From Chloroflexota bacterium (lineage in GTDB: Bacteria > Chloroflexota > UBA11872 > VXOZ01): DNA of 48,134 nt. The notes below the pieces were generated by a model. The model was not told the DNA's origin. It was given only the letters and a program-made list of their open reading frames with translations, and searched no databases. Positions within the stretch are counted from its first letter, which is position 1; each line of letters starts with the position of its first letter. The DNA lies in contig JAJEAH010000077.1 of the NCBI GenBank assembly GCA_022824225.1, forward strand, positions 1 through 48,134. Direction: 5' to 3'. The position numbers and the translations under genes are program-made. Shown here piece after piece: positions 39,211 to 48,134 of this stretch.

Positions 39211-40764
39211 ATGCCGTTTACGTTTCTCCACGCCGCCGACGTCCATCTTGGCTACCAACAATACGGGCGCATCGAGCGCTACGATGACTTTAGCGAGGCG
39301 TTCGAGTGGATTGTGCACACCGCGCTGGAGGAGCGCGTCGCCTTCCTGCTTCTGGCCGGCGACCTCTTCGAGAAACGGTCGCTCGATCCCCAAACGTTGC
39401 TCATCGCGGTCAGAGAGTTCGAGCGCTTGCGTGAAGCAGGTATTCCCGTTGTTGCCATCGAGGGCAACCATGAGCGCACCTATGGCGACAACCTCTCCTG
39501 GATGGAGTATCTCAATCATAGCGGGTTGCTCTACCTGCTGGATTGCCCACGCCAGGGCGGCGGCTGGCGGCCCCTGCCCTGGCACGCAACGGAACGCACC
39601 GGCGGTTACGTCGATGTCGCCGGCGCGCGAATCTACGGCCTCCGGTACCGAGGCGCGGAGACGGGTACAGTATTGAGCGCCATCGGCGACGCAATCGCCG
39701 CCGACCCGCCGCCGGACGGCCTGTTTTCTATTTTTCTCGCCCACACGTCGGTGGAAAACTACTACGACCGAGGACACTCCTTCGCGCGGCAGCAGGACCT
39801 CAGCGCCCTGCGGCGCAGCCTGGACTATCTGGCGCTCGGTCACGTTCACGTGCCCTACCGCGGCTCGCTGGGCGACGGCGAGTGGCTCTTCAATCCGGGC
39901 AGTCCGGAGACCTGGAGCAGTGAGGAATGGCAATTTGGCAATAAGGGCGCGTTACTCGTCAGCGTGGATAAGACGCAAAAACCGTCCTTCAGCGCCGTCG
40001 CGCGAGACTATCCCAACCGCAGGCCGTTCATACGCATCGTGCAAGAACTCGACGCTTGTCCGTCACCGGCACGCCTCATGGAACTCCTGGAATTGAGGAT
40101 CAGGCGCGAGCCCGCGCCGGCAACTAACCTCGATTCGGGAAGTGACGGTTCGCCGGAGACTAGGTCTCCCGAATGTGAGTCTCGCCCACAGAAAGCGCCC
40201 GTGGTTGAGATCATCCTCACGGGCGTGGCCCGGTTTTCGCGGGCGGATATCGACAAGGAAGCGATTGAGCAACTAGCCCGACGACATCTGGACGCGCTCG
40301 TCGTGCGCATCCGGTCGTCGCTGCAGGAAGCGCTGGCATCTTCAGCTATAGACGGAGACCAGCAACCTCGCGACGTGCTGGAACGCCTGGTCTTCGAGAA
40401 TCTCATTGCATCCGACGATCGCTTTGCCGCCGCGGCCTCAGACAACACCCAGATCGCCATGGCCTTGAAGCAGATGGTGCTGGACGGAGTTCCCAGCGGC
40501 GACATTGCGGCGGAGGTGGGCCGCCGCATTCGGATGCAACGCAATCAGGCGGCCGGCGACGTGCCGACGGCAGAACCGTCAGAATACCGGGTTGATTCCC
40601 ACGGCGGTGAGAATCAAGAAACCGCTGCAAGTCAAGAGGGCAGCCCGGCTGGCAGGGACGATACTCGACCGCCAACCGGCCGTGCGCCGCATGCTGACGC
40701 AGAGCAAGATACGCTTTTCGGCCCCGCTAGCGCAGATTCTGAAACCGCGCCACCACTGGACTAA
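39211..40764 (+). CDS. sbcD: SbcD/Mre11 DNA exonuclease subunit
   Basis: 517 residues. Mre11 phosphodiesterase motifs in order: ADVHLG (D and H), AGDLFEK, EGNHERTY, AHTS and ALGHVHV, all within the first 215 residues. It binds two manganese ions and cuts DNA ends when driven by the SbcC ATPase. The capping and SbcC-binding parts follow (about 230-440). The last 70 residues are Gln/Glu/Asp/Pro-rich and look disordered; they carry QDTLF (499-503), which matches the beta-clamp binding pentapeptide type QxxLF. ATG 39211 fits the family N-terminus and only GAGG precedes it. Six bases before SbcC, so coupled. Confidence 0.92.
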   Translation: MPFTFLHAADVHLGYQQYGRIERYDDFSEAFEWIVHTALEERVAFLLLAGDLFEKRSLDPQTLLIAVREFERLREAGIPVVAIEGNHERTYGDNLSWMEYLNHSGLLYLLDCPRQGGGWRPLPWHATERTGGYVDVAGARIYGLRYRGAETGTVLSAIGDAIAADPPPDGLFSIFLAHTSVENYYDRGHSFARQQDLSALRRSLDYLALGHVHVPYRGSLGDGEWLFNPGSPETWSSEEWQFGNKGALLVSVDKTQKPSFSAVARDYPNRRPFIRIVQELDACPSPARLMELLELRIRREPAPATNLDSGSDGSPETRSPECESRPQKAPVVEIILTGVARFSRADIDKEAIEQLARRHLDALVVRIRSSLQEALASSAIDGDQQPRDVLERLVFENLIASDDRFAAAASDNTQIAMALKQMVLDGVPSGDIAAEVGRRIRMQRNQAAGDVPTAEPSEYRVDSHGGENQETAASQEGSPAGRDDTRPPTGRAPHADAEQDTLFGPASADSETAPPLD

Positions 40765-40770
40765 CCAGCA

Positions 40771-43686
40771 ATGCGCATCACTGCTGTCTCTCTCAAGAAC
40801 ATCAAGAGCTATCGGGACGTAGACGTCGCGTTTCCCCAAGGCACCATTGCCATCACGGGGCCGAACGGCGCGGGCAAGAGTACGCTTCTGGAGGCCATCG
40901 GCTTCGCCTTGTTCGACTCGCTCCCGTACCGCAACCAGCGCGATTTCATGCGGCACAACGCCGCCGAGGCGGACGTGCGGGTCTCCTTCCTCTCCAGCAT
41001 CGACGAGTGCGAATACCAGGCCGTGCGCACGCTGCGTCGCGCCGGTAGCGGCGGGGACACGGTTACGTCAACCTATTTCGTCCACAGCTTCGCTACCGGT
41101 GAAAGGGCCGCTCAGCAGAAGCAAGACGTCCAGGACTTCCTGCGCCGCCACGTCGGATTGGACGACCACGACGACTTGACGCGCGTCTTTAGTAACGTGC
41201 TGGGCGTGCCCCAGGGGCGCTTGACCGCAGATTTCCTGCTGAGGCCCGCCCAGCGCAAGAGCACGTTCGATCCCCTGCTCCAGGTGGACACGTACCGGCT
41301 GGTGTACGACCGGCTGCGGGACGTGCTCGACGTGCTGCAAGGGGATATTTCAGGGCACGAACGCCGGGTGGCCGAACTGGAACCGGAAGCCGCCCGCCTG
41401 CCGGACCAGCTTGAAGCCCTCGCCGCATATGAGCGCCAGCGCGCGGACTCCGCCGCCCAAGCGCAGGCCCTTGCCGCCGACCGCGCCGCGCTGCAAAAGC
41501 AACTGGCGCGCCTGGACGCGCAGCGCCGCACGTTGGAACAGCAGCGGGACGTCGTCCGCCAATTCGCGCAGCAAAAACGACAGTTGGAGACGCGCCGGGA
41601 GCAGGAACAGCAGCAAGTGGATTCCGCCAAGAGCGCCGCCAAGCTGGTCACCGGCAGCGCCGCGGGACATGCCGCCTACCGCCAGGGCCAGTCCGCGCTG
41701 GCGGCGCTGGAAGACGAGCGCCAGGCAGCCGACGCCCTGCGCACGTCCAGGCACAGCCTGGAGAACCATCGCGTGGCCCGCAAGACGCGGCTCGCCGCCC
41801 TGGAGAAAGACGTGGCCGCGGCCAGGAGCGCGGTGGAAGAGAGGCGTACCCTGGCGCCGCAGATCGCGCAGCAAGAACGCCTGGAGGAACAGGCACGGAC
41901 ATTCGCCGCCGACGTAAACCTGGCCCGGCAAGCGGGTGCTCAAGTCTGTAACATGCTGCGACGCATCGCCAACTTTGCCGCCGGGGAGCAGCTCGTGTTG
42001 TCCGATGGCCCGCCGCCCGCGGCGGCCGGAGAGGATGCCGCCTACGTTCGCGAGCAACTTGCCGAGCAGTCTGCGTTCCTGCAAGAGATCGGCCAATGGC
42101 TCCAGCAACGACATAGCTGCCGCCAGCAACGCCGCCTAGCCGAGCGGGACCGCGAACGCGCCGCGGCGGAGGTGGCCCAGTGCCGAAAAGCTCGTGACGC
42201 CGCTTCGCAACTCGCAGGTCTGGAGCGCCAACTGCAGGAGGTCCAACAGCAGATTAGCGATCTGCAGGCCCACCGCCGCTTCAACCAAGATTCGCAGCGC
42301 ATGGCTGAGGACGGCTTGTGTCCCTTCTTCCGGGAACACTGCCCAAGAGTAGATGACGAGGGCAGCCTCGTTCCCGTCATCGCAACGCTCATTCGCGACT
42401 CGGGCGGGGACACGCAACACGCTCTGGCAGAAAAACGCGCGCTGGGCGAGGCGGTGAACCGGGCCAGAGACGCCCAACGGCAAGTTGACCGCCTGGCTGA
42501 CCTGGAGCCCCGTTTGGCAGCGCTAGACGAGGCGTCGCAGGACCTGGGCCGGCAGGAGCGAGACCTGACCCAACGCATAGCGGAACATCTGCGAATCGTC
42601 TGGCCGCCCGCAGCCATTGAGGAAACGATCGCCACACTCGCAGCGCGCGAGCAATCGCTTGGCAGTGAACTCAACGCCCTGGGCGACCCGCGCCGGACCG
42701 CCGAACGCCTGCACGGCCCCGCCGAGGAATTCGAGCAGCGCGCGCAGTCACTCGCTGCTACTACTGAGGAGCTTGGCCGCATCGAGACGGCGCTTGTGGA
42801 CGTCAACAACCGCCTGGCGCCCTTCGCCGACCTTGAACGACGGGTAGCCGCCGCCCGTGAACTGATGGAAAAGCACCACGATGCGCATGACACGTTTCTG
42901 CGCTATCAGGAGACCGCCGCCGACCTCCCGCGCCGGGAGGCGACCATGACCTCGCTGGCGGGCGAGCTAGAGGCAAACTCTCGATCGCTCGCCGAAGCCC
43001 GGCAACTCCTGGCGGACTGCGAGGCGAACTGGGACCCGGAGACGCTCAAATCCGCGCAAGAAAGACTGGACGCAACGCAGAACGCGCTTGGCGCGGCGCA
43101 AGAACGCATGCGCCTGCTGGAGGCGCAGATCGCCCAGGCCCAAGAGGAAATCGTCTCGCTCCGGCAAGCCGCCGCGAATCTCGCTGCCGCCAGGCGCGCC
43201 CACGCCGAGGCTGAGGACATCCGCAACACCACGGGATTCCTGCGCAACGTGATTCGCGATGCGGGGCCCCACATTACCCGCCATCTCATCCAGCAAATCT
43301 CCGCCGAAGCCAATACGCTCTTCAGCGAAATCCTGGGCGATGCGGCCGCGGAACTCTCGCTCACGGAGGACTACGACATCGTGTTGGAGCAACACGGTCA
43401 CCAACGAGGCTTCGCCCAACTGTCCGGCGGCGAGCAGATGAGCGCCGCCCTGGCCGTCCGCCTGGGCCTGCTGCGCCAACTATCGGACATCAACATTGCC
43501 TTCTTCGATGAGCCAACGCAGAACATGGACTCCGCACGCCGCCACAACCTGGCTGAGCAACTGGAACGGGTGACGGGGTTTCAGCAGCTTTTCGTCATCA
43601 GCCATGACGACACCTTCGAGCCGCTGGTGTCAACGGTGCTGCGCGTGCGCAAGGAAAACGGCGAAAGCATGGTGGAGCACATCTAA
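40771..43686 (+). CDS. sbcC: SbcC/Rad50 SMC-like ATPase
   Basis: 971 residues. Walker A G30-x-N-G-A-G-K-S-T38 at the N-terminus, a long coiled coil (about 175-830), ABC signature LSGGEQ (884-889) and Walker B FFDEP (911-915) at the C-terminus. The two ends join to form an ABC ATPase head that drives SbcD. Rad50 dimers join by a CxxC zinc hook at the coil tip. Here the coil midpoint has C517-PFFREH-C524, six residues between the cysteines, so the hook is non-canonical. A coil of about 320 residues per arm is in the normal range. It follows SbcD by six bases, with no promoter between. Confidence 0.92.
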   Translation: MRITAVSLKNIKSYRDVDVAFPQGTIAITGPNGAGKSTLLEAIGFALFDSLPYRNQRDFMRHNAAEADVRVSFLSSIDECEYQAVRTLRRAGSGGDTVTSTYFVHSFATGERAAQQKQDVQDFLRRHVGLDDHDDLTRVFSNVLGVPQGRLTADFLLRPAQRKSTFDPLLQVDTYRLVYDRLRDVLDVLQGDISGHERRVAELEPEAARLPDQLEALAAYERQRADSAAQAQALAADRAALQKQLARLDAQRRTLEQQRDVVRQFAQQKRQLETRREQEQQQVDSAKSAAKLVTGSAAGHAAYRQGQSALAALEDERQAADALRTSRHSLENHRVARKTRLAALEKDVAAARSAVEERRTLAPQIAQQERLEEQARTFAADVNLARQAGAQVCNMLRRIANFAAGEQLVLSDGPPPAAAGEDAAYVREQLAEQSAFLQEIGQWLQQRHSCRQQRRLAERDRERAAAEVAQCRKARDAASQLAGLERQLQEVQQQISDLQAHRRFNQDSQRMAEDGLCPFFREHCPRVDDEGSLVPVIATLIRDSGGDTQHALAEKRALGEAVNRARDAQRQVDRLADLEPRLAALDEASQDLGRQERDLTQRIAEHLRIVWPPAAIEETIATLAAREQSLGSELNALGDPRRTAERLHGPAEEFEQRAQSLAATTEELGRIETALVDVNNRLAPFADLERRVAAARELMEKHHDAHDTFLRYQETAADLPRREATMTSLAGELEANSRSLAEARQLLADCEANWDPETLKSAQERLDATQNALGAAQERMRLLEAQIAQAQEEIVSLRQAAANLAAARRAHAEAEDIRNTTGFLRNVIRDAGPHITRHLIQQISAEANTLFSEILGDAAAELSLTEDYDIVLEQHGHQRGFAQLSGGEQMSAALAVRLGLLRQLSDINIAFFDEPTQNMDSARRHNLAEQLERVTGFQQLFVISHDDTFEPLVSTVLRVRKENGESMVEHI

Positions 43687-44024
43687 TGCGCGGGGTGAGT
43701 TCGGCTGTCGCTGGCTCTTTGAGCACGGTATTCGTTGACCGCAGCATCGAGCGCGCGGTATTGACTGAACGGTGTCTGTGGCAAGCCGGCATCGAGCCGC
43801 AACGCCGCCTGGGTAAGTCAAACGTGACTCCCTTTGTCTGCATTGACGATCAGCCCATTTGACTTTGCACGAGAAATGGCATTGTGGCTTGATGAAGCCC
43901 GTAGCGCAGCAAGTACCGCAACGCATACAGCGGGCTGCAGAAATGCGCCAACCAGGATAGCGGCAAGGTGAACAGAAGGGCGCAGCGGTCCATTGGCGGC
44001 CCGAACAGACGGAGATAGCCCAGC
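43687..44024. other. Intergenic between SbcC and NurA
   Basis: 338 bp. No gene on either strand is supported; the small minus-strand frames have no family content. GGAGA at 44011-44015 belongs to the next gene. No terminator was seen, so readthrough from sbcD-sbcC is possible. Confidence 0.5.
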
Positions 44025-45224
44025 GTGTTCTATCGTGACAAGATCATAGAGGCCTTGAACGCCAAGCGCGCCGCGCTGACCGAGCTGGATGCGGAGCAGT
44101 GGCGGCGCCAGCAAGAGTTGCGCGCCGCTTGCGCAGCCTTGGCCGAAACGACCGCCGCCGAACTCAACGAACGCTTGGCAAACGTTAAGGCCCCCGGCGC
44201 CCTGCCTACCGCAGAATTCGACAGACAGCCAGGGTACCGCATCTACTTTCCGCAAAGCTGGCAGAACGTTGCGGAAATGCGGCATTGGGCGGCAGAGGCG
44301 CTGGCCGGAGTCACCGTGTGCGCGGTAGACGGCAGCCAGTTGCCGGCAACCAAGGACTTTCCCCTGCCGGTGGCGGCAATTCAAGTCGCATGGTACGTCA
44401 ACCCCCACGACGCCCGGGGTATGTACCGCAAGGACGCGGACGTCGACGTATTGACCCCGCAAGACCTTGACGATGGCAAAGGCGACTCCTCCCTCTGGGT
44501 TGGGCTCCTCCGCTACGAGCGGGAAGTGGCGAAAGTCAACGACCTCATGCGCGAGCACGCCGGGCAGGGGGAACGCGTCGTTGTCCTCTTCGACGGCTCG
44601 CTTACGGTCTCGTTCGCGGGGCCGCTGGAGCCGGCGGTCCGCGACCGCTACCGCGCGGCGGCTGTCAGCATGCTGCGGACGTCCGAGCAGTGCCGGGTAC
44701 CGCTCGTTGCTTTCATCGACCGGTCGCGGGCCGATGACTTTGCGCGCATGCTCTGTCACCTACAGGGCATCAACGTCGACCAAGCCTCCCGCATCAGCGA
44801 CGCGGCTCTACTGGAGAGCCAGGAGAACGGCGAGCGCCTCTGGCGCCTGCCGGCATTTGTGTGCCAGCGGAAGGACATGGTGGAAGGCAACAACTATACA
44901 GACGGCGCAACGGGGGAGAACTACGGCAGCAAGATCTGTTTCACCTATGTCAAGACCAACAGCGGCCGCCCAGCGCGCTTGGAGTTTCCGCGCTGGTTGC
45001 TCTGCGCCGGAATGCTGGACCGCGTGATAGACTGGGTGCGGGCCGAGGCGGTTGTGGGTACCGGATACCCCTACGCCATTCAGGCGGCGGACGCGGCAGC
45101 CGTAATCGACTTTCGGGACCGGCAGCGCTACCAGCGCGCCCTGGAGGAATTCGGCCAACGCCACAGCATTCGCACGATGCAGGCGTCGGCCAAGCAAGCC
45201 AGCAAGGAACGTCGGCGGACATAA
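44025..45224 (+). CDS. nurA: NurA-domain 5'-3' nuclease
   Basis: 399 residues from GTG 44025, with GGAGA at 44011-44015. NurA nuclease motifs: VDGS with D102, then FDGS with D190, both acidic residues that bind manganese, and AADAAAVIDFRDR near the end. NurA with the HerA ATPase resects 5' strands at DNA ends to feed homologous repair, working with Mre11-Rad50. The N-terminal region (about 10-60) is helical. The next gene starts 12 bases after the stop and is a HAS-barrel protein, a part of HerA. The residue at 102 is in the family's first catalytic position. Good support for the family; partner partly missing here. Confidence 0.88.
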   Translation: MFYRDKIIEALNAKRAALTELDAEQWRRQQELRAACAALAETTAAELNERLANVKAPGALPTAEFDRQPGYRIYFPQSWQNVAEMRHWAAEALAGVTVCAVDGSQLPATKDFPLPVAAIQVAWYVNPHDARGMYRKDADVDVLTPQDLDDGKGDSSLWVGLLRYEREVAKVNDLMREHAGQGERVVVLFDGSLTVSFAGPLEPAVRDRYRAAAVSMLRTSEQCRVPLVAFIDRSRADDFARMLCHLQGINVDQASRISDAALLESQENGERLWRLPAFVCQRKDMVEGNNYTDGATGENYGSKICFTYVKTNSGRPARLEFPRWLLCAGMLDRVIDWVRAEAVVGTGYPYAIQAADAAAVIDFRDRQRYQRALEEFGQRHSIRTMQASAKQASKERRRT

Positions 45225-45236
45225 GAGGCCGGAACC

Positions 45237-45839
45237 ATGCAGCAGAAAGCCATCGGGCGCATCGTCAAGTCTAATTCCCACACTGATTACGTGTGCCAGG
45301 TCTATGCGCCAAACGAGACGGCCTGCGACCCGCAGCCCAACGACTACGCGTTTGGGCGCTTCGTGCAAGCGCCCATTGACGCCGCGGGCGACCGCCAAGC
45401 CGTCGGCATCGTGTACGACACCATCCTTCTCAATCCCGACTACGGCAACCTGGGACCCCGCCTCAATCCTCCCGGCGATCAAGTCACGCTGGCGCCGGAC
45501 TATCTGGTGGAAAAGGCAACGGCGGTGGGCATAATCATGGTCGGCATGGTGACGGGCGCTGCCGTGGAGCACGGCGTAATCGCCCTGTCCCTGCCCGTGG
45601 ACGCTGAGGTCTCCGCCATGGATGAGGACGACGTGCGGCGCTTCCACCACGTGAACGGCACACTAGCGCTCGGCTACCTCCCGCACCTCATCTCGCACGA
45701 GAGCCACCTCGTCACCGAGCTCAGCCTGAACGTGATGCGCCAACTCCATGAGCTCTTCGCCGCGCCGGGCGACCGGCGTCTCTTGCGCACGTTGGCGTCC
45801 CATTTCGCGTGGCAGGCACGGGTCACGCCGCTGGGTTAG
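45237..45839 (+). CDS. Stand-alone HAS-barrel protein (HerA N-terminal-like)
   Basis: 200 residues. Residues 5-75 match the HAS barrel of HerA helicases: IGRIVKSNSHTDYVCQVY, then FGRFVQAP, then GIVYDTILLNP. In HerA this barrel precedes a RecA-like ATPase and helps dock NurA. The protein ends after about 130 further residues with no Walker motifs, so it lacks the motor. It may be a NurA-docking adaptor, a HerA whose ATPase is encoded elsewhere, or a truncated copy. It follows NurA by 12 bases, with AGAGG upstream of ATG 45237. The stop is 20 bases before a tandem repeat array. Confidence 0.78.
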   Translation: MQQKAIGRIVKSNSHTDYVCQVYAPNETACDPQPNDYAFGRFVQAPIDAAGDRQAVGIVYDTILLNPDYGNLGPRLNPPGDQVTLAPDYLVEKATAVGIIMVGMVTGAAVEHGVIALSLPVDAEVSAMDEDDVRRFHHVNGTLALGYLPHLISHESHLVTELSLNVMRQLHELFAAPGDRRLLRTLASHFAWQARVTPLG

Positions 45840-45858: not shown

Positions 45859-46011
45859 GCTCGCACAGACAGTGCGCTCGCACAAACGGTGCGCTCGCAC
45901 AAACAGTGCGCTCGCACAGACAGTGCGCTCGCACAAACGGTGCGCACTCACCAGCAGTGGGCTCACTCCGAAACTGCGCCCACACCAACGGTGCGCTCGC
46001 TCCGCAAGCAT
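45859..46011. repeat. 17-bp tandem repeat array, nine units
   Basis: Units begin with GCTCGCAC: 45859, 45876, 45893, 45910, 45927, then diverged units at 45944, 45961, 45978 and 45995. The first five differ by single bases (GACAGTGC or AACGGTGC endings). Each unit border makes GTGCGCTCGCAC, whose arms GTGCG/CGCAC are inverted with CT in the middle, giving a binding-site-like palindrome every 17 bases. There are no spacers, so it is not CRISPR. Confidence 0.85.
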
Positions 46012-46787: not shown

Positions 46788-48134
46788 GTGTCGTTGCGAG
46801 AACCCGAACAAGCGGAGACCCGCGGCTTCGACTTCGACGACGGCAGTGGGCTGCGGGTGGCGCACGTCCGTTTTGAGACTGAGGCCAAGTTCGACTGGTC
46901 GCTGTTCGACGGCTACGACCGCATTCGCATCCTCACGTACTCGGCCGGCGTGAGCGCCATCGTGCGGCTGCTGGCAAAGCACGGGTTCAGCGAATTCGAG
47001 TGCGTGTTCGGCTGCGAGAGCACCTTGCGCACGCTCAAGGACATCTTGGCGTTTCAGCAGGTCGCCATCGGCGACACACGCGCTGCCATCAAGAACCTGT
47101 CCGATGAACGCCATGCCTTCATTCTCAGCCGCGTCCGGGAGGGACAAGCCCGGTTTCGCGTGCTGCGCAAGCAGATTGCCCACGCCAAACTCTACCTGCT
47201 GGAAAACACGGCAACCGGCGGCACCCGCGCCCTCATCGGCTCCGCGAACCTCTCGGAGACGGCCTTTGGCGGACGCCAGTCCGAGACGCTGGTCTGTTTC
47301 GACGATGACGAGGCCGCGTGGAAGCACTACCTCGGCATGTACGACGCCATCCGGGACCGGGCCTCCGACGAGTTGCCGCTGCCGCAGGAGCGCATCGAGA
47401 GCGCTGAAATTGCGCTGCAGGAAGTTCCTGTCCTTGCTCCTGAAGATGTTTCGACTCTGGTGATTGAAAATTCTGAGAGCGAGCACGGCTCAGGCGATGA
47501 GACCCACATCGCCATTCCCACGCAAATAGAGCGCATAGAGAGGATGAAGGCGGCGATTCCGCCGGTGGTGGCTAACCTCATTCCTGCGCCCCGCAACGGC
47601 AAGCAGCAGATCACGCCTGACGTCCGGCGGAAGATCGTCAGAGAGTCCAGCCGCATCCGTGTCGTGCAGTCCGAAGAAGAGACCGATCACCGCGAACTGT
47701 CCATCGACAGAGACTCAAAAGCCGTTAATCTCCTTGGCGAGCCGTATTCCCTGGCACCCGATCTCGCCGCCGCAAAGCAGGATGCGAAGCTGCTCGTGGA
47801 GTTTTTCAGCAACTACGAAGGCACGTTCGAGGGCGGCATGGGCGTGGAGCGGCTCCAGCGCGACTACTTCATCCTCTGGTCGTGGCTCTACTTCGCGCCC
47901 TTCATGTGCGACATGCGCACGCTGGCCGGCCACCAGGGGGACATCTTCCGCTTCCCCTCGTTCGCCATCGTCTACGGCAAGCCCTCCTGCGGCAAGTCCA
48001 GCCTCATCGATACGCTCATGACGTCCATGTTCGGCAGGACATACAGCATCGACAAGCGCGAGTTTACCAAGGCGCGCCTAAGAGACATCCAGCACGCCTA
48101 CAAGCGGTTTCCGGCGGTGTTCGACGACATTGGC
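46788..48134 (+). CDS. PLD-like nuclease fused to P-loop ATPase (partial)
   Basis: 449 residues, open at the right edge; the gene continues beyond the window. GTG 46788 has a perfect AGGAGG at 46778-46783. Residues about 20-200 are a phospholipase-D-like domain with one half motif: H132-A-K134 followed by GSANLS (151-156). Single-HKD proteins pair to make one active site and can cut nucleic acid. Residues about 320-449 are a P-loop ATPase: GKPSCGKSS (397-405), then FPAVFDD (Walker B) 12 residues from the edge. A linker (205-300) is charged. PLD-ATPase architectures occur in phage-defence and DNA-repair systems. No paralogue or partner is seen inside the window apart from the repair row upstream. 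Function unknown. Confidence 0.8.
   Translation, partial: MSLREPEQAETRGFDFDDGSGLRVAHVRFETEAKFDWSLFDGYDRIRILTYSAGVSAIVRLLAKHGFSEFECVFGCESTLRTLKDILAFQQVAIGDTRAAIKNLSDERHAFILSRVREGQARFRVLRKQIAHAKLYLLENTATGGTRALIGSANLSETAFGGRQSETLVCFDDDEAAWKHYLGMYDAIRDRASDELPLPQERIESAEIALQEVPVLAPEDVSTLVIENSESEHGSGDETHIAIPTQIERIERMKAAIPPVVANLIPAPRNGKQQITPDVRRKIVRESSRIRVVQSEEETDHRELSIDRDSKAVNLLGEPYSLAPDLAAAKQDAKLLVEFFSNYEGTFEGGMGVERLQRDYFILWSWLYFAPFMCDMRTLAGHQGDIFRFPSFAIVYGKPSCGKSSLIDTLMTSMFGRTYSIDKREFTKARLRDIQHAYKRFPAVFDDIG

Follow-up and report, generated by a model that had tools for sequence, protein, structure and literature searches.

A conserved small protein accompanies NurA and HerA in Chloroflexota and is a candidate third component of their end-resection system

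NurA and HerA have been studied as a two-protein machine, and the way in which NurA is restrained, and steered to one strand, has been described as unclear (PMC12977600). The HAS domain of HerA is the face to which NurA binds, both in Deinococcus (PMC9960219) and in Thermococcus (PMC12977600). In archaea, the genes for these two proteins are found in a cluster with mre11 and rad50 (Constantinesco 2004; Hopkins and Paull 2008, both as cited in PMC9960219). A bacterial example is the NurA-HerA complex of Deinococcus radiodurans, in which the HerA hexamer carries a NurA dimer at its HAS face (PMC9960219); this complex has two components, with no additional small protein reported, and is without Mre11-Rad50 (PMC12977600).

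We analyzed a stretch of 48,134 nucleotides from a metagenome-assembled Chloroflexota genome (G000:C25:1-48134, here called the window), in which mre11, rad50, nurA and a fourth gene, here called X, are consecutive on the + strand (Table 1). The preliminary description of this stretch, made from the letters alone, had placed such a row at these positions, and the Pfam domains of the first three products agree with it. The best NCBIfam matches of the window's Mre11 are archaeal Mre11 models and that of its Rad50 is the archaeal Rad50 model PRK03918, with scores under the cut-off in both cases. The phosphoesterase catalytic motifs are found in Mre11, the catalytic motifs VDGS and FDGSL in NurA, and the Rad50 hook motif is CPFFREHC, near residue 517. 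As in the archaeal cluster, the same four enzymes are encoded by clustered genes, and HerA is full-length with a DUF87 ATPase core. However, Chloroflexota add the small conserved gene X between nurA and herA, and in the window's genome herA lies on another contig. To our knowledge, the classic clusters of thermophilic archaea contain no gene resembling X. What sets the row apart is this conserved, unnamed extra component; NurA-HerA in the company of Mre11-Rad50 is itself known.

Table 1. Features of the gene row and its 3' flank, in window coordinates
Feature	Position	Strand	Evidence
mre11, 517 aa, metallophosphoesterase	39211..40764	+	Pfam PF00149 Metallophos, E=7e-15
rad50, 971 aa, CX6C hook	40771..43686	+	Pfam AAA_23, SMC_N, SbcC_Walker_B
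nurA, 399 aa, 5'-3' nuclease	44025..45224	+	Pfam NurA PF09376, E=7e-27
X, 200-aa small stand-alone protein	45237..45839	+	Family, co-occurrence, HerA pairing, purifying selection
Probable HAS-barrel-like N-terminal part of X (approximate; boundary inferred)	45249..45620	+	PF09378 on X', profile alignments
17-bp tandem repeat, 8.4 copies	45859..46000	.	TRF; collinearity with sister genomes stops here

The window contains no herA frame 3' of X, and no full-length HerA frame can be recovered after position 45839. The preliminary description had taken this to mean a row without the HerA motor, in which a barrel stands in place of the full ATPase. However, a search of the rest of the genome, which that description had proposed, found a full-length HerA of 628 aa at C3:22309-24153 (E=2e-192). 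This protein matches DUF87 (E=2e-34), is the single full-length HerA found in the genome, and has 9x1l and 4d2i as its closest solved chains. One way to understand the local absence of herA is that the organism dropped the motor and kept the barrel to cap or clamp NurA, in a reduced, motor-less resection complex. We reject this reading, given that a full HerA is present in the same genome, that HerA (called at E <= 1e-40) is present in 214 of the 218 genomes in our survey that carry X or its sister family X' (see below), and that in most relatives X is a separate gene beside a full herA, normally just before it.

The gene order in relatives, a comparison that had also been proposed, indicates that the local absence of herA reflects a rearrangement. 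Most sister genomes have the order mre11-rad50-nurA-X-aldolase-herA (e.g., loci L009, L011 and L043), and most other relatives have either mre11-rad50-nurA-X-herA, which in L012 occurs with no gap, or X-herA. The herA gene adjoins the row in most relatives, but not in the window's genome. There, an aldolase-herA-oxidoreductase block is intact on contig C3 and collinear with L009. The aldolase gene (HpcH/HpaI-type, as identified from its sequence without a Pfam scan; L009:10660-11433 and L001:81-854) lies between X and herA in the sisters and directly before herA in the window's genome. In the window, the tandem repeat at which collinearity ends begins 20 bp past the X stop codon and is followed by a cupin gene on the opposite strand. 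The sister genome G005, a separate assembly of nine contigs, has X on C2 and herA on C9, and carries the window's cupin and PLD genes 3' of X. Because this genome has the same separation and the same cupin and PLD genes, the split between X and herA is a rearrangement, and not an assembly gap. The rearrangement is common only to the window's genome and G005, with G187 as a milder case in which herA is 9 kb from X on the same strand. The most likely history is that X and herA were adjacent, that the aldolase gene was then inserted between them, and that the row later broke between X and the aldolase gene.

Using a profile built from five X sequences, we found family X in 68 of the 400 Chloroflexota genomes that were sampled. 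The protein keeps a length of about 200-250 aa across the phylum, beside a full HerA. Among five sister genomes the dN/dS of X is 0.05-0.11, and nurA and herA are in the same range; X is a real gene under purifying selection. Neither Pfam, NCBIfam nor PADLOC contains a match to the window's X, and PDB sequence searches with X and with X' gave none either. Because X has no Pfam or NCBIfam entry, genome annotation misses it. Within the fetched loci, X is directly 5' of a full-length herA; in several families it is itself preceded by mre11-rad50-nurA, and in others these genes are absent from the locus. Among the 49 genomes in which all three genes were located, X is at most 1.5 kb from herA in 46 and at most 1.5 kb from nurA in 16, and in none is it away from both; the three exceptions with no herA nearby are the window's genome, G005 and G187. 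We also considered whether X might be a fragment or stump of HerA. This was rejected: X and a full herA are distinct genes that normally follow one another, and Pfam finds in X no DUF87, no P-loop and no RecA-like ATPase core.

A weak match in locus L075 led to a second family, X', whose members are genes of 199-212 aa flanked by nurA and by the gene of a HerA that is more divergent. At the profile level, X and X' can be aligned along their whole length (153 columns, probability 96%, E=4e-9), with a score of 72 compared to a maximum of 19.5 among shuffles. Family X' is the more widespread, occurring in 152 of the 400 Chloroflexota genomes. It is at most 1.5 kb from nurA or herA in 57 of 70 genomes and near neither in the other 13; in 28 of the 70 it is beside nurA and away from herA.

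The HAS barrel was reportedly defined by Iyer et al. in 2004. In the literature, the HAS barrel of HerA is described within NurA-HerA complexes; we found no stand-alone companion there, although an earlier mention in Iyer et al. 2004 is possible. The preliminary description called the product of the fourth gene a HAS barrel. The part of this assignment that stands is carried by chains of profiles through X' and HerA, and a direct Pfam match is what X does not provide. The HAS barrel model PF09378 does not match the window's X, and among 36 X members it matches 2, with a best E-value of about 0.01. It does match 5 of 7 X' members (E 4e-4 to 0.08, residues ~7-76), in a consistent manner, although all X and X' scores are below the curated cut-off (25.2 bits for X'). 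A second line of evidence comes from HerA itself. Against the N-termini of the clade-2 HerA proteins (see below), the X and X' profiles reach scores of 26.9 and 29.9, higher than any of 60 column shuffles (null maxima of 19.8 and 23.8), and the alignment falls at the start of the barrel, which is the expected place. Against the N-termini of clade 1, which is X's own clade, X gives no signal, with 31 of 60 shuffles scoring as high. AlphaFold2, run on X with the five-sequence alignment only, gave no confident model (pLDDT 36, pTM 0.27). From these profile comparisons, including that of X with X' along its whole length, we consider it likely but unproven that the N-terminal part of X is HAS-barrel-like. 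In contrast to the barrel described by PF09378, X stands alone, is without an ATPase, and continues beyond the HAS-like region into a distinct, conserved C-terminal part about 75 residues long.

Whatever its fold, the small protein is a near-constant companion of NurA and HerA. Of the 400 genomes, 231 have NurA, 222 have HerA, and 218 have X or X'. The three are found together in 211 genomes, and NurA and HerA occur with neither X nor X' in 4; X or X' is found without HerA in 4 genomes and without NurA in 3 of the 218. The association of X or X' with NurA has a Fisher p-value of ~7e-89, which is uncorrected for kinship, and the co-occurrence of the three spans many families and genera. The pairing extends to the type of HerA. 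Chloroflexota HerA proteins form two clades with ~22% identity between them, and the HerA is of clade 1 at all 43 X loci and of clade 2 at all 41 X' loci. Such strict pairing is expected of a dedicated HerA partner. The gene order, the break in the row and the linkage of X and X' with NurA and HerA are near certain.

One genome, G077, contains both pairs on different contigs, i.e., X with a clade-1 HerA and X' with a clade-2 HerA (L142 and L143).

We therefore favor, with a confidence somewhat better than even, the reading that the Mre11-Rad50-NurA-HerA end-resection system has X as its dedicated third component, and that the full-length HerA of the window's genome is on another contig following the rearrangement. 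Probably, X would act between HerA and NurA as a HAS-barrel adaptor or regulator. A third component at the HAS face is the best explanation because X appears HAS-like, accompanies NurA and HerA, and keeps to one HerA clade. In the mechanism that we propose, the HerA hexamer would thread DNA ends through its ring and the NurA dimer would dock on the HAS-barrel face of HerA. X would bind at this face, contacting HerA, NurA or both, and might hold, position or gate NurA; the binding, the stoichiometry and the role are all conjectural here. Resection of DNA ends in vivo is presumed for the system of the window. Of the preliminary description's alternative suggestion, that the motor is encoded elsewhere and the barrel is an adaptor for NurA, the first half is borne out by the HerA on C3, and the co-occurrence of X with NurA and HerA accords with the second, in which the adaptor role is itself a deduction. 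It must also be considered that the NurA-HerA complexes of archaea and Deinococcus have two components, and that a third part is in principle unneeded.

The observation that X' can sit beside nurA and away from herA suggests another function, in which X, similar to an immunity protein, would inhibit or chaperone NurA and hold the nuclease inactive until HerA takes its place, and would not be a permanent member of the active complex. That X or X' so seldom occurs without NurA is consistent with this, and a HAS-like fold would be expected to compete with the barrels of HerA for the surface of NurA. This is the main rival to the third-component reading. However, X adjoins herA far more often than nurA in the 49 genomes counted above, and the fact that its family tracks the HerA clade (HerA clades alone having been compared) suggests contact with HerA. 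We consider an inhibitor or chaperone unlikely. The five-gene rows of several Chloroflexota families and of haloarchaeal plasmids suggest a further possibility, namely that X is a recruitment factor linking Mre11-Rad50 to NurA-HerA. This is weaker than the inhibitor hypothesis and, in our judgment, quite improbable, in that about half of the fetched loci, considering only the neighborhood of the locus, have X-herA pairs with no mre11-rad50 nearby. X is a direct candidate for the control of NurA, since it is a near-constant companion, tracks the HerA clade, and is present in the rows on archaeal plasmids.

These plasmid rows are from outside Chloroflexota. On CP002989.1, a plasmid of halophilic archaeon DL31, consecutive genes (Halar_0185-0181) encode a metallophosphoesterase, an SMC protein and NurA, followed by a "hypothetical protein" of 233 aa and, last, a DUF87 protein. 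The X profile matches the hypothetical protein (Halar_0182) with E=6e-47. The DUF87 protein belongs to HerA clade 1. The order mre11-rad50-nurA-X-herA is also present on plasmids of Halobaculum and Natrinema, which makes three records in all (CP002989.1, NZ_CP119991.1 and NZ_CP084885.1; L138, L139 and L140), and a Halorussus plasmid, as a fourth haloarchaeal case, has an X-herA pair. X in these rows is about 35% identical. They differ from the row in the window in that they are archaeal and plasmid-borne, that their X is annotated as hypothetical, and that their Rad50 has the classical CPxC hook. In the haloarchaeal plasmid row, the entire module is present in mobile form. A search of plasmid records with X' found no relative.

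Carriage on plasmids might suggest that the module is mainly a device for defense or plasmid maintenance that destroys foreign DNA, with X as a sensor or specificity part. HerA proteins are found in several defense systems, as judged by PADLOC matches, and the HerA-NurA of Thermococcus has been suggested to destroy foreign dsDNA (PMC12977600). However, PADLOC has no model that matches X, NurA or Mre11, and no defense partner (Sir2, DUF4297 or the like) was found beside HerA. In many Chloroflexota genera the trio is almost always present, whereas most defense systems are distributed patchily, and no relative of X was found in phage records, nor any in viral contigs searched with three X queries and one X' query. 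We therefore regard a mainly defensive role as very unlikely. A more ambitious version of the third-component reading is that Chloroflexota and haloarchaeal plasmids share an obligate three-protein NurA-HerA machine, in which a HAS-like subunit is attached to the HerA ring, or caps it, and determines when NurA may cut. Two ancient versions (X with clade 1, and X' with clade 2) would have evolved in parallel, and one of them would have been exchanged between bacteria and archaea as a set of five genes. We offer this only tentatively, as something we would not expect to hold in full.

The Rad50 hook varies among these rows. A C-x6-C zinc hook, and not CXXC, is present in the window's genus and several other Chloroflexota, with CPFFREHC or a similar motif also in L062, L067-L069, L072-L074, L044 and L045. 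The usual CPxC hook is present in L012, L070, L071 and the plasmid copies, and Rad50 in L046 and L047 has neither a CXXC nor a C-x6-C motif.

At the 3' end of the window, a gene that runs off it (46788-48134) encodes a PLD nuclease-like N-terminus and a C-terminal region with a P-loop. We considered whether this PLD/AAA gene might form a larger module together with the helicases located by the haloarchaeal rows, and rejected this, as the similarity is that of generic domains only. The gene has a weak PADLOC match to ZacB (E=2e-6). A PLD/P-loop gene is also present at L010:16939-18996, where it lies 3' of a gene encoding a 1704-aa fusion of DEAD/DEAH and UvrD helicases.
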